Shown piece by piece: positions 38,430 to 60,760 of a DNA stretch of 64,000 nucleotides. Positions within the stretch are counted from its first letter, which is position 1; the number at the start of each line of letters is the position of its first letter. The position numbers were made by a program, and so were the translations under genes. Origin of the DNA: an alpha proteobacterium U9-1i (lineage in GTDB: Bacteria; Pseudomonadota; Alphaproteobacteria; Caulobacterales; Aquidulcibacteraceae); assembly GCA_000974665.1 (NCBI GenBank), contig BBSY01000003.1, positions 1,267,001-1,331,000 of the forward strand. The letters run 5' to 3'. Under the pieces are notes generated by a model. It was not told where the DNA came from and made no database searches. It saw nothing but the letters and a program-made list of their open reading frames with translations.

Positions 38430-38807
38430 TCAAGCCCGCGCATCCCGCCGCGATGGGCCCGACGTGGACGTTTCGTCTTCCGCGCGCGCGATGTAGCCCA
38501 ACGGCCCGCGCATGACAGCCATTGCTTCGCGCGTTGGACGGGCCGCGGGCGGCGCCTTGATCGCATCGGCCGTCAGCGTGATCAACGCTTCATCCTCCAG
38601 CGCCAGCGTCGCCAAGCCCTCGGCCTCCTCAATCGTGCGCGCCCATACGTAGACCGCCGTAACCGCGCCGACGTAGCGTTCGGGCCATTGCTTGGCGCGG
38701 CGGTCAAACTCGGCTTCCACCACCACACGCCAAAACGGCATGCGCGCGCGGACGAGCTTCCAGCGATGGAGCGCCGCCCAGAAGCCGCTCGGACCGCGCT
38801 TCAGCAT
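38430..38807 (-). CDS. hypothetical protein coupled to a TIR gene
   Basis: 125 aa, not recognised. Start overlaps the stop of the TIR gene (TGATG; GTG at 38810 also possible), so it is translationally coupled. Basic N-terminus, a central hydrophobic/aromatic strand-helix stretch (YVGAVTAVYVWARTIEEAEG, given in part) and a Ser/Asp/Arg tail. Tight coupling makes it a candidate partner, regulator or antitoxin of the TIR protein (inference). Confidence 0.65.
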   Translation of the reverse strand: MLKRGPSGFWAALHRWKLVRARMPFWRVVVEAEFDRRAKQWPERYVGAVTAVYVWARTIEEAEGLATLALEDEALITLTADAIKAPPAARPTREAMAVMRGPLGYIARAEDETSTSGPSRRDARA

Positions 38808-39940
38808 CACGCGGCCTCCAACAAACGCAGCACAGCGGCGGGGCGTTCAGCTTCCGGCGTCTCGAACAGTTTCAGGAACTGAACGCCAGCGAAGAAATAC
38901 TCGAAATCCTCGGGTGGCGTTGCGTCCTCGACGAACACCGGCACCAGCTTCTTGTGGTAGCGATCGGCGAGATAAATCTCGCGCTTGACGTGATCACTCT
39001 CGAACGCAGCCTTCGAGCACATCACCAGCACGCCCTTGGCGGACCTGATCGCGCGTACGATTTCACCGGCCCAACCATCGCCGGCGGCGATGCCTTGCTG
39101 ATCGACCCAGAATTTACGGCCCTCTGCTTTCGCCGCTTCGATCACCGGCATCACTTTGTCCGAGTTGGCGCGCGCATAAGACACAAATACGGCGTCGTCC
39201 TGCGGGGGCGCGGGCGCCTCCTCGGGCTCCGCGTCGGAAGCTGCTGCCCCGCTCCCGGCGCGTGGGCGCGTGAACATACTGGCGACCGACGCCGCGATGG
39301 CGCCGAACATGACGAGGATCGCGGCGAGGAAGAGCCACATCGTGACGCCGCCCGGCAGACCGTAGCGCACACCGAATGCGTCAATCCCGGCGAGCAGATC
39401 GGCGAACGTGCCAGGCGTTGGGCCGATGCGATTGGCGAGCCAAATCGACACGCTGGCCGCGAGTGCAAGCAGGCCGGGCAGGATCATGGCGATCGTCAGC
39501 AACGCCCCGCCCATGCCGCTTCTGCGCGCTGTGGGCTGCGGCGGCGAAGCGGGTGGCGCACCTTGCGGGCGCGGCGCCCGCAGCAATGTTTGGATTTGGT
39601 TGGCGAGTTCGTTCCACTTGAACTCACGTTGTGCTTCGAAGCTCGCGTCCACTGCGGGCAGATCACGCAAGCCCACCGGCGCGAAGGCGTGGTCGAGCTT
39701 CACCAGGATGAGCCGATTTTCCGTCCAGGCATCGAGCGCACGCTGTTCCAGCCGCAAACGGTGTGGCGAGAACACGAAGTCTTGCGAAAGCAGCAAGATA
39801 AACACATCGCTCGATTGCAGCGGCCGCAATGCAGTTTGACCGTCGTCGAGCTCGGAGAAATGCCCGCGGCGCTCCAGGAATTTTTCCAGCCCTTCGGCGG
39901 CGTCCTGGTTCTTGGGCGCGTGGGCGATGAACACGGTCAT
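38807..39940 (-). CDS. membrane protein with two TIR domains
   Basis: 377 aa. N-terminal degenerate TIR-like domain (1-120: FIAHAPKNQDAAEGLEKFL, SSDVFILLLSQDF, RLRLEQRALDAW), a Pro-rich linker, two membrane segments (144-170 and 197-223), an acidic linker, then a canonical TIR domain (248-377: AVFVSYARANSD, KFWVDQQGI, VLVMCSKAAFES). Glu321 in HVKREIYLA is placed as the catalytic Glu of TIR NADases; the N-domain has Glu65 in the comparable place. Both TIR domains should be cytoplasmic. First gene of a seven-gene reverse operon ending at 34727. Confidence 0.85.
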   Translation of the reverse strand: MTVFIAHAPKNQDAAEGLEKFLERRGHFSELDDGQTALRPLQSSDVFILLLSQDFVFSPHRLRLEQRALDAWTENRLILVKLDHAFAPVGLRDLPAVDASFEAQREFKWNELANQIQTLLRAPRPQGAPPASPPQPTARRSGMGGALLTIAMILPGLLALAASVSIWLANRIGPTPGTFADLLAGIDAFGVRYGLPGGVTMWLFLAAILVMFGAIAASVASMFTRPRAGSGAAASDAEPEEAPAPPQDDAVFVSYARANSDKVMPVIEAAKAEGRKFWVDQQGIAAGDGWAGEIVRAIRSAKGVLVMCSKAAFESDHVKREIYLADRYHKKLVPVFVEDATPPEDFEYFFAGVQFLKLFETPEAERPAAVLRLLEAA

Positions 39941-58515: not shown

Positions 58516-59076
58516 ATGACCGATACGCTCGCGGGAAAACTGCTGGTGGCCATGCCGGGGATCGGCGATCCCCGCTTCGATCATTCCGTCATTCTGATGT
58601 GCCAGCACGACGGCGAGCACGCGATGGGCTTGGTGATCAACAAACCAAAAGAGCAGCTGACGCTGTCTGACGTGCTCGATCATCTCGGCATCAGCGCGAC
58701 CGGCGCTTCAGCGCAACGCGCGGTGATGGATGGCGGGCCAGTGCGGCCCGATCGCGGTTACGTGCTGCATACGCCGGACTTCACCACCAAAGGCGCGACG
58801 CAGCCGGTGGCGCCTGGCATCAACCTCACGGCAACGCGCGACGTATTGGAAGCGGTCGCCGGCGAACACGCGCCAGAACGCTTCGTCCTCGCCCTCGGCC
58901 ATTCGGGCTGGGGTGCTGGCCAGCTTGAGGATGAGCTAAAGAAGAACGCTTGGCTCGTCGTCGAGGCGAGTGATGCGATCGTGTTCGGCGAAGGTCACGA
59001 CGACAAATGGCAGCGCGCCATCAAATCACTGGGTATCGATCCGGGCCAATTGATGGGCGACATGGGGCGGGCTTGA
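58516..59076 (+). CDS. YqgE/AlgH family protein
   Basis: 186 aa UPF0301 protein. GKLLVAMPGIGDPRFDHSVI at the N-terminus, GLVINKP and the C-terminal LGHSGWGAGQLEDELKKNAWL are diagnostic. AlgH in Pseudomonas affects alginate, but the molecular role in this family is not known; a fold related to peroxidase-associated regulators has been seen. Intact, stand-alone. Confidence 0.93.
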   Translation: MTDTLAGKLLVAMPGIGDPRFDHSVILMCQHDGEHAMGLVINKPKEQLTLSDVLDHLGISATGASAQRAVMDGGPVRPDRGYVLHTPDFTTKGATQPVAPGINLTATRDVLEAVAGEHAPERFVLALGHSGWGAGQLEDELKKNAWLVVEASDAIVFGEGHDDKWQRAIKSLGIDPGQLMGDMGRA

Positions 59077-59125
59077 GCCGGCGCTGCGTGAGCGCCCGCC
59101 CTGCGCCGCTTGGGGAGCGGGCGAG

Positions 59126-60148
59126 ATGACCTACAAAGCGTTCTTTAGTTACAGCCGTGCAGACGGCAAGCTTGGCGCATGGCTGCACCGTAAGCTCGAT
59201 TCCTTCCGAACGCCGAGCGCGTTGGTCGGCGCTCCAGGAGTATTCGGATCGGTATCGGCTACGCTTCACCCTATCTTCCGTGATCGCACAGATATGTCGG
59301 GCGGCGGCTCTCTATCGCAGCGCATAGAAACCGCCTTAGCTGAAAGCGAAGCACTTGTTGTGCTCTGCAGTCCTGCTGCGGCCACAAGCAAGTGGGTGAA
59401 CGACGAGGTCCTCGCTTTTCAGAAACTAGGCAAGGGTGACCGTATCTTTCCGGTGATCGCACCGAGCTTGCCTGAAGCTGATGATATTGAGCGCGCCTAC
59501 TTTCCTCCAGCCCTTCGCGGGCACGGGCTTCTCGCCGCCGACTTACGCGAAATCCGGCGAAAGCAACGCCTTGTCGGAGATGGACGCGAAACGGGGCTCC
59601 TGAAGCTCGTCTCCGGCCTGCTGGGCGCGCCACTGGACGCCCTACTCCAGCGCGAGCGACGCCGTCAGCGGACGCTCACGGCGATATTGGCCATTGCTAC
59701 TTTCACCTTTGCCATTGTCGCAATGGCGGCGACTCTGCTCACCTTCGTTGCGTTCTCAGCGTTTGAATGGGTTGCACGGAGTGAGCAAGAACTGGTCGTC
59801 GCTGAGTTTGAGGACCTACGGCGGACATACACCAGGGGAGGCATAAACCAGGTAAGTCAGGCGATCGTCGAGCGCACCTACCGTCCCAGCCAGTTGTGCT
59901 ACGCGCTCACTGATTCTGACGGCGGCGTTCTCGTCGGCGACTTCAGTGCGCTTCCGATAGTGCCGACCTCGGATGAGACCGAGCGCGTCGAGTTTTCGTT
60001 TGACGTTGGGGGCGAACTCGTCGTGACGCGCGGTCGCGTAGGGCGTCTCTTGGGGGGGCCAATGTTGCTTGTCGCCACTTGCCAAAGCGCGCCACCACTC
60101 ATGTACATGGAATATCGCGCACTCGGGAGATGGCTCTCATCACTTTAG
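59126..60148 (+). CDS. TIR domain protein with a histidine-kinase-type sensor region
   Basis: 340 aa. TIR domain 1-170: KAFFSYSRADGK, the LHRKLDSFRTPSALVG insertion, IFRDRTDM (BB-loop region), LVVLCSPAAATSKWVNDEV with Glu94 in the catalytic position. One membrane segment (184-210). Residues 217-330 lack a second membrane segment and resemble the periplasmic sensor of alphaproteobacterial histidine kinases: EFEDLRRTYTRGGINQVSQAI (in part), then CYALTDSDGGVLVGDF. Predicted topology is TIR inside, sensor outside. The kinase and HAMP parts are missing. Confidence 0.85.
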   Translation: MTYKAFFSYSRADGKLGAWLHRKLDSFRTPSALVGAPGVFGSVSATLHPIFRDRTDMSGGGSLSQRIETALAESEALVVLCSPAAATSKWVNDEVLAFQKLGKGDRIFPVIAPSLPEADDIERAYFPPALRGHGLLAADLREIRRKQRLVGDGRETGLLKLVSGLLGAPLDALLQRERRRQRTLTAILAIATFTFAIVAMAATLLTFVAFSAFEWVARSEQELVVAEFEDLRRTYTRGGINQVSQAIVERTYRPSQLCYALTDSDGGVLVGDFSALPIVPTSDETERVEFSFDVGGELVVTRGRVGRLLGGPMLLVATCQSAPPLMYMEYRALGRWLSSL

Positions 60149-60187
60149 CGGTGCGGCTGCGCTACCAAGTAGTGCTTCCAGCCGGTC

Positions 60188-60760
60188 TCACCCAATTTTG
60201 CAAACGCCCCAAAGCAAATGATCGCGCCAGGCGCCGTTGATCTTGAGATACGCCTTCGCTTGGCCTTCGTGCGTGAAACCCGCTTTCTCCAGCACGCGGC
60301 GTGAAGCGAGATTGTCCGGCTGGCAGGCTGCCTCGACGCGATGCAGACCCACATCGTCGAACGCGTAGGCGACGACAGCGCGCACAGCGGCGGTGATGTA
60401 GCCCTTCCCCGCGTGCTCCTGCGCCGCCCAATACCCGCACGACGCCATCTGCGCGACGCCACGGCGAACGTTGGAAAGCGTGATGCCGCCAACGAGATCG
60501 TCATCATCTTGGCGGAACACGAAGAACGCATAGGCGCGATCGTCACGTGCGTCCTCGGTGTAGCGGCGGAGCTTGTAGCGGTAGGAGCCGCGCGAGAGTT
60601 CATCGGCTGACCATGTCGGCTCCCATGGCAGCAGATAGGCGCGGCTCGCTTCGCGCAAATCGGCCCAATCCTGATAGTCGCGCAGCTCCGGCGCGCGCAG
60701 ATACACGCCCTGGCCGTCGACGCGGCGCGCACCCGATTCATCTCTGCGCATCAGCACCAT
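60188..60760 (-). CDS. GNAT N-acetyltransferase, RimJ-like
   Basis: 190 aa GNAT fold. LRAPELRDYQDWADLR opens the RimJ/RimL pattern, GYWAAQEHAGKGYITAAVRA (in part) is the acetyl-CoA P-loop (Q/R-x-x-G-x-G/A variant, here EHAGKGY), and NLASRRVLEKAGF the V-motif. Would acetylate a ribosomal-protein N-terminus or a small amine. Start 3 nt after the M16 peptidase stop, so operon with the thrC cluster. Confidence 0.88.
   Translation of the reverse strand: MVLMRRDESGARRVDGQGVYLRAPELRDYQDWADLREASRAYLLPWEPTWSADELSRGSYRYKLRRYTEDARDDRAYAFFVFRQDDDDLVGGITLSNVRRGVAQMASCGYWAAQEHAGKGYITAAVRAVVAYAFDDVGLHRVEAACQPDNLASRRVLEKAGFTHEGQAKAYLKINGAWRDHLLWGVCKIG

Follow-up and report, generated by a model that had tools for sequence, protein, structure and literature searches.

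A TIR domain joined through one membrane segment to a histidine kinase-type periplasmic sensor: a candidate membrane TIR receptor in the alpha proteobacterium U9-1i

The window analysed here is a 64,000-nucleotide stretch of contig BBSY01000003.1 from the alpha proteobacterium U9-1i. Towards its end, between a YqgE/AlgH-like gene and a convergent acetyltransferase gene, lies a single gene encoding an N-terminal TIR domain, one transmembrane (TM) segment and a C-terminal periplasmic sensor domain derived from a histidine kinase (HK). This TIR-TM-sensor anatomy is confirmed by the comparisons described below (Table 1). The G+C contents at the three codon positions of the gene (GC1 to GC3) are 0.659, 0.491 and 0.635, and 39 nt separate its stop from the end of the acetyltransferase gene on the opposite strand. 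Neither flanking gene was a defence gene in Pfam searches.

TIR domains are familiar from immunity. The sequence-only reading of the locus had proposed a TIR domain with a catalytic-type Glu94, and both profile and alignment agree. TIR_2 (PF13676) matched residues 49-116 at 44.2 bits (cut-off 28); PF08937 also matched (32.1 bits, cut-off 21.2), and PF01582 scored under its cut-off (19.8 against 21.3). Among 28 aligned TIR N-terminal parts, 11 positions including E94 were invariant in 28/28, and W90 was present in at least 90%. The NADase activity of most bacterial TIR domains depends on the WxxxE glutamate, as a passage of one paper states (PMC11374754). This C-helix glutamate, the criterion of TIR NADases, is present here as W90-VND-E94, and the protein is a putative NADase. 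The nearest TIR relatives are 57-64% identical to the window TIR, and three paralogues in the same genome are 33-43% identical over the aligned N-terminal parts. Matches to PADLOC models were weak and partial, the best being TIR-SAVED (7.3e-07, residues 49-111), and a sequence search of solved structures with the TIR domain returned weak matches only (best E 0.38).

The single membrane segment of the earlier reading was also recovered by hydropathy, with one hydrophobic stretch along the protein: 19-residue Kyte-Doolittle windows averaging above 1.4 started at residues 181-199 only. In the AlphaFold model the segment runs on into a stalk helix. Because the basic run RERRRQR precedes the hydrophobic stretch, the positive-inside rule would place the TIR domain in the cytoplasm.

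No Pfam model matched residues 182-340. By BLASTP, residues 184-317 aligned with the first membrane segment (TM1) and periplasmic part of a kinase encoded in the same genome (38% identity, E 3e-25), so that homology of this region to a histidine kinase is far beyond chance, as had been suggested from the sequence. The kinase (L029:3148-4548) carries HAMP, HisKA and HATPase domains, and its gene follows those of a trypsin/PDZ DegP-type protease and an OmpR-type response regulator; a search of open-licence papers for such a protease/regulator/kinase cluster returned nothing. A profile of the sensor found the domain in 253/299 genomes of the order, nearly always in one copy. Among the matches listed, the sensor frames were of kinase length except for the window gene, a broken frame in genome G014 and one frame at a contig edge. 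The comparison of the C-terminal region with known sensor structures that the earlier reading had called for gave a likeness: the AlphaFold model consists of a long helix and five strands in an extracytoplasmic PAS/Cache-like fold, and VIA-align matched it to solved extracytoplasmic PAS/Cache sensors. A sequence search of solved structures with the sensor gave nothing significant, the best match (E 0.014) being an unrelated capsid fusion. In a tree of 30 sensors the window copy fell within an 11-row clade of family kinases (support 97/94).

The broken frame of G014 was considered as a second fusion and rejected, since this 174-aa short frame is a kinase gene broken between frames within the usual cluster. 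The locus is L070:3224-4600 (+ strand), and the break in this conserved kinase may come from a sequencing error, the genome being a draft.

Could the gene simply be a truncated histidine kinase? We rejected this reading, as the frame opens with a TIR domain and inspection by eye of the stretch past the stop (60146-60232) in three frames found no likeness to a second membrane segment (TM2), HAMP or kinase. Nor did Pfam find HisKA or HATPase_c in the protein itself, and the absence of a kinase, with no frameshifted remnant 3' of the stop, thus stands as first read. We then counted constraint over 115 sensor columns, with conservation classes set from 23 family kinases. The window sensor keeps 18/27 invariant columns, 15/35 of those conserved at 85-99%, 11/31 at 60-85% and 4/22 below 60%; 20 more distant kinase sensors keep 16-22/27 and 9-18/35 in the first two classes. 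Of the nine invariants lost, five (212, 214, 216, 318 and 319) belong to the two membrane-facing ends, which indicates a retained core with altered membrane contacts. This pattern is consistent with adaptation of the sensor to a single helix, and part of its branch may predate the fusion.

Kinase sensors are usually dimeric. With this, the homology to the resident kinase sensor, which extends through TM1, would also be expected of a modulator of two-component signalling, the ectodomain forming mixed pairs with the resident kinase and the TIR domain serving as passenger or scaffold rather than enzyme. The pairing surface is uncertain at 38% identity, however, and the TIR domain keeps its catalytic-type glutamate and the other invariants, which would not be expected in a passenger. 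We regard such a modulator as quite improbable.

The TIR half belongs to a larger set. The 4.05 Mb genome holds 25 TIR_2 matches in 23 open reading frames (ORFs), and four of its proteins, the window protein, L031, L032 and L033, form a subfamily with a TIR domain, one membrane segment and a variable C-terminus, here called TIR-TM-X. The window protein qualifies as a member, with the conserved TIR subfamily positions and, after them, one TM segment. L032 ends in WD40 repeats and L033 in a sub-threshold DUF4350 match. L031 ends in an MlaD (MCE) domain that aligns with an MlaD-like protein of the same genome (E 3e-12); its TIR half and that of L032 share 72% identity, which points to a recent exchange of the C-terminus in L031. 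The TIR tree groups the window gene with L010, L011 and L038 in a four-row clade (100/100); the TIR-TM modules of the window protein and L031 come from different clades. Of these three relatives, L011 and L038 hit propeller models, and L010, without a Pfam match at its C-terminus, is propeller-like by eye. The C-termini of 24 relatives matched WD40/propeller models in 10 cases, TPR in three above the cut-off and one weakly, FGE-sulfatase in one and an RHS repeat in one, with weak matches only in two and none in six. A kinase-sensor model matched 0/24. Conversely, the window protein has no Pfam match to a propeller or repeat domain at its C-terminus, which shows no likeness to that of the nearest relative (E 0.73). 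Since MCE (MlaD) domains and the kinase sensor are both periplasmic in their parent proteins, the family orientation would be TIR-in and sensor-out; on the topology of these parent domains, the window protein likely has its TIR domain inside and its sensor outside.

Integrated domains work as decoys in plant NLRs. An ectodomain that mimics a host envelope sensor, or MlaD in the sister protein, could act similarly, an attacker of the kinase or of lipid transport tripping the TIR domain. Two C-termini in this genome, on TIR-TM modules of different clades, are indeed variants of periplasmic proteins also encoded by it (HK sensor and MlaD). These are two cases only, however, no copying of host machinery is evident in the C-termini of the other relatives, and no phage or attacker is known here to target the kinase or MlaD. 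We consider an integrated decoy very doubtful.

Other TIR genes of the genome are built differently. Within the window, a gene at 38807-39940 (- strand) encodes a protein with two TIR_2 stretches around two apparent membrane segments, as judged by eye. Elsewhere the genome encodes two fusions of TIR with a ParA-type ATPase (AAA_31/CbiA; L057:2166-3548, + strand, and L036:2736-4007, - strand), a fusion of TIR with a dynamin-type GTPase (L058:1056-3545, - strand) and a WD40-Roc-TIR protein (L055:826-3798, + strand).

The insertion site was compared over 30 YqgE loci, one per genus genome and including that of the window. The acetyltransferase gene abuts YqgE tail to tail in six of them (L105, L107, L110, L111, L116 and L117), with at most a few bases between the genes or overlapping stops; 22 lacked the acetyltransferase gene in the fetched flank, and one (L102) carried another small gene between the two. 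In the window the gap is 1,111 nt. GC3 was 0.611 for the TIR half of the gene and 0.664 for its sensor half; the six adjacent genes that were measured ranged over 0.746-0.792. The TIR-sensor gene looks to have been acquired as one unit. The small ORF of the L102 gap has a CxxCH motif by eye, and genes may have landed repeatedly in this YqgE-acetyltransferase gap.

Table 1. Features of the TIR-sensor locus and of the related MlaD fusion
Feature	Position	Strand	Basis or remark
TIR-TM-sensor gene	59126..60148	+	340 aa, ATG to TAG, frame unbroken
TIR domain region, residues 1-180	59126..59665	+	Pfam TIR_2; alignment of 28 TIR N-terminal parts
W90-xxx-E94 motif (W90-V-N-D-E94)	59393..59407	+	alignment of 28 TIR N-terminal parts
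Single membrane segment, about residues 183-215, RERRRQR before it	59672..59770	+	hydropathy; AlphaFold model
Periplasmic sensor domain, residues 216-318, HK-derived	59771..60079	+	BLASTP, profile, AlphaFold, VIA-align
C-terminal tail, residues 319-340	60080..60145	+	unlike kinase (alignment A6), stopping near the expected start of kinase TM2; pLDDT (AlphaFold per-residue confidence) <50
Candidate ribosome binding site GGGGAG	59112..59117	+	8 nt 5' of ATG; read from sequence
Left neighbour, YqgE/AlgH-like (DUF179) gene	58519..59076	+	PF02622, 164 bits
Right neighbour, GNAT acetyltransferase gene, convergent	60188..60760	-	PF13302, 95.5 bits
Gap between convergent neighbours, TIR-sensor gene its sole content	59077..60187		empty-site comparison; nearly absent in six relatives
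L031 TIR-TM-MlaD (MCE) fusion, 341 aa	L031:3250-4272; G000:C3:1053249-1054271	-	MlaD 27.9 bits, cut-off 25.1

The anatomy, the homology of both halves, the intact frame and the insertion as a unit are thus established, and on them we base a proposal for function. The protein may be a type-II single-pass membrane TIR receptor whose NAD+-consuming (nicotinamide adenine dinucleotide) activity is under the control of a signal from the envelope, a reading from sequence to which we give about even chances. The N-terminal TIR domain, keeping its catalytic-type WxxxE glutamate, would lie in the cytoplasm, and one helix would span the inner membrane and extend as a periplasmic stalk bearing the PAS/Cache-type sensor. 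The sensor would derive from an envelope-sensing HK kept once in nearly all relatives, with a DegP-type protease and an OmpR-type regulator as neighbours, and would have been joined to a TIR-TM module whose relatives bear beta-propellers or other C-terminal domains. Pairing like that of kinase sensors might occur through stalk and sensor, and the helix pair might be shifted by an event at the envelope (a ligand, protein stress, phage entry or lysis). The TIR domains could then associate, so that NAD+ is consumed or an ADP-ribose signal made, and the cell would be stopped or partners alerted, possibly in defence. In histidine kinases of this kind the signal exits via TM1 and TM2. Here the TM1 path alone would remain, leading backwards into the TIR domain; this backward path would be geometrically simple because the TIR domain precedes TM1. 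Envelope stress is our guess for the class of signal, since the parent kinase is encoded beside a DegP-type protease.

Several results weigh against this proposal. The protein lacks TM2, through which a kinase sensor usually passes on its output; the near-invariant R-D found directly before TM2 in kinases is lost (R318T, D319C), and no partner gene lies beside the TIR-sensor gene. The branch of the window sensor (1.64) is flagged as long and its composition is odd, which also fits relaxed constraint; for the same reason the exact parent kinase is unsure. Above all, the fusion was seen in one genome only. A search with the full protein found it in 1/60 family genomes, the sensor profile gave no other TIR-sensor candidate among the matches listed from the 299 order genomes, and in 385 class genomes, eight of which (U9-1i included) matched at 1e-15, no other genome matched in both halves. 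The conserved architecture for which the earlier reading had looked to homologues is therefore not found, and, the architecture having been found in this one genome only, the label 'conserved receptor' does not apply.

Two apparent further fusions were examined and set aside. G014 (L010), the closest homologue, aligned over residues 1-301 at 52%, but the best match of its C-terminus to the sensor had E 0.73, so that the alignment simply runs on from the TIR domain. G072, whose row reached residue 315 of the TIR-MlaD query, was tried as a TIR-MlaD relative; its best MlaD match had E 3.2, and it is WD40-like by sequence. Among the 60 family genomes, full-length TIR-TM-MlaD occurred in the window genome only. 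The single protein found no relative in the genome-contig and viral-contig collections scanned, and 9 of 72,556 plasmid records gave matches, which lay wholly in the TIR half and in no case covered 80% of the query. In the open-licence literature we found no paper on a TIR domain fused to a kinase sensor or MCE domain, and our literature search found no characterised TIR-TM-propeller/TPR member.

A junction seen in one genome only might reflect misassembly of a binned genome. Neither half is near-identical to another locus of that genome, however (sensor 38%; TIR 33-43%), contig C3 is 1.41 Mb long and the frame runs unbroken across the junction; an artefact is exceedingly improbable. The one-genome occurrence, the long sensor branch with its odd composition, the loss of the pre-TM2 residues and a tail that is unconserved and modelled with low confidence would all be expected of a chance chimera in decay, in which a TIR-TM module and a kinase fragment recombined and the C-terminus is a mere anchor or is drifting, the TIR domain not being tuned to the envelope. 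Yet the 340-codon frame is intact with a coding-type base pattern, GC3 is low in both halves, and the substitutions spare kinase-invariant columns within or near the range of distant sensors, on a branch that may partly predate the fusion. We consider a decaying chimera unlikely. For the receptor proposal, the weakest point is that it concerns a single case, and the strongest is the combination of a sister TIR-MlaD protein with a parent domain found across the order.

Compared with known systems, the protein would be a new combination of domains inside the known class of TIR effectors, whose sensors vary, and its anatomy as judged from sequence is strongly supported. It shares the 11 invariant TIR positions, the basic patch and the single membrane segment with the TIR-TM-propeller/TPR proteins of Alphaproteobacteria, but ends in a kinase sensor domain. 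With the sensor kinase of the DegP/OmpR cluster it shares TM1 and the periplasmic sensor; unlike that kinase it lacks TM2, HAMP, HisKA and HATPase and has a TIR domain at its N-terminus. ThsB (Thoeris), TIR-SAVED, TIR-STING and SpbK belong to the same TIR fold family and have the catalytic-type glutamate; they sense inside the cell, whereas the window protein has a membrane helix and a periplasmic sensor after the TIR domain. No ThsA partner (Thoeris) lies beside the TIR gene, whose flanks are the DUF179 and GNAT genes; ThsA was not searched for elsewhere in the genome. The bacterial TIR systems known to us all read intracellular signals. Animal Toll-like receptors, as described in part of one paper (PMC7075850), combine an ectodomain, one membrane helix and a cytosolic TIR domain. 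The likeness is of layout only: the window protein is inverted, with the TIR domain N-terminal, and has a PAS/Cache sensor in place of leucine-rich repeats, to which it gave no match.

By extension, TIR-TM-X proteins might be modular membrane TIR receptors, a topological mirror of Toll-like receptors, with outward domains exchanged or captured from the cell's own envelope proteins and acting as guards or decoys that turn envelope interference into NAD+ loss; this wider view we hold to be decidedly unlikely. If the receptor proposal for the window protein is true, one protein, with neither a kinase nor a second gene, would link envelope events to an output that consumes NAD+. Because the genome still encodes the parent kinase, one signal could be used to compare the two. 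Two members of the uncharacterised TIR-TM-X family carry recognised periplasmic domains, which opens its topology to testing.
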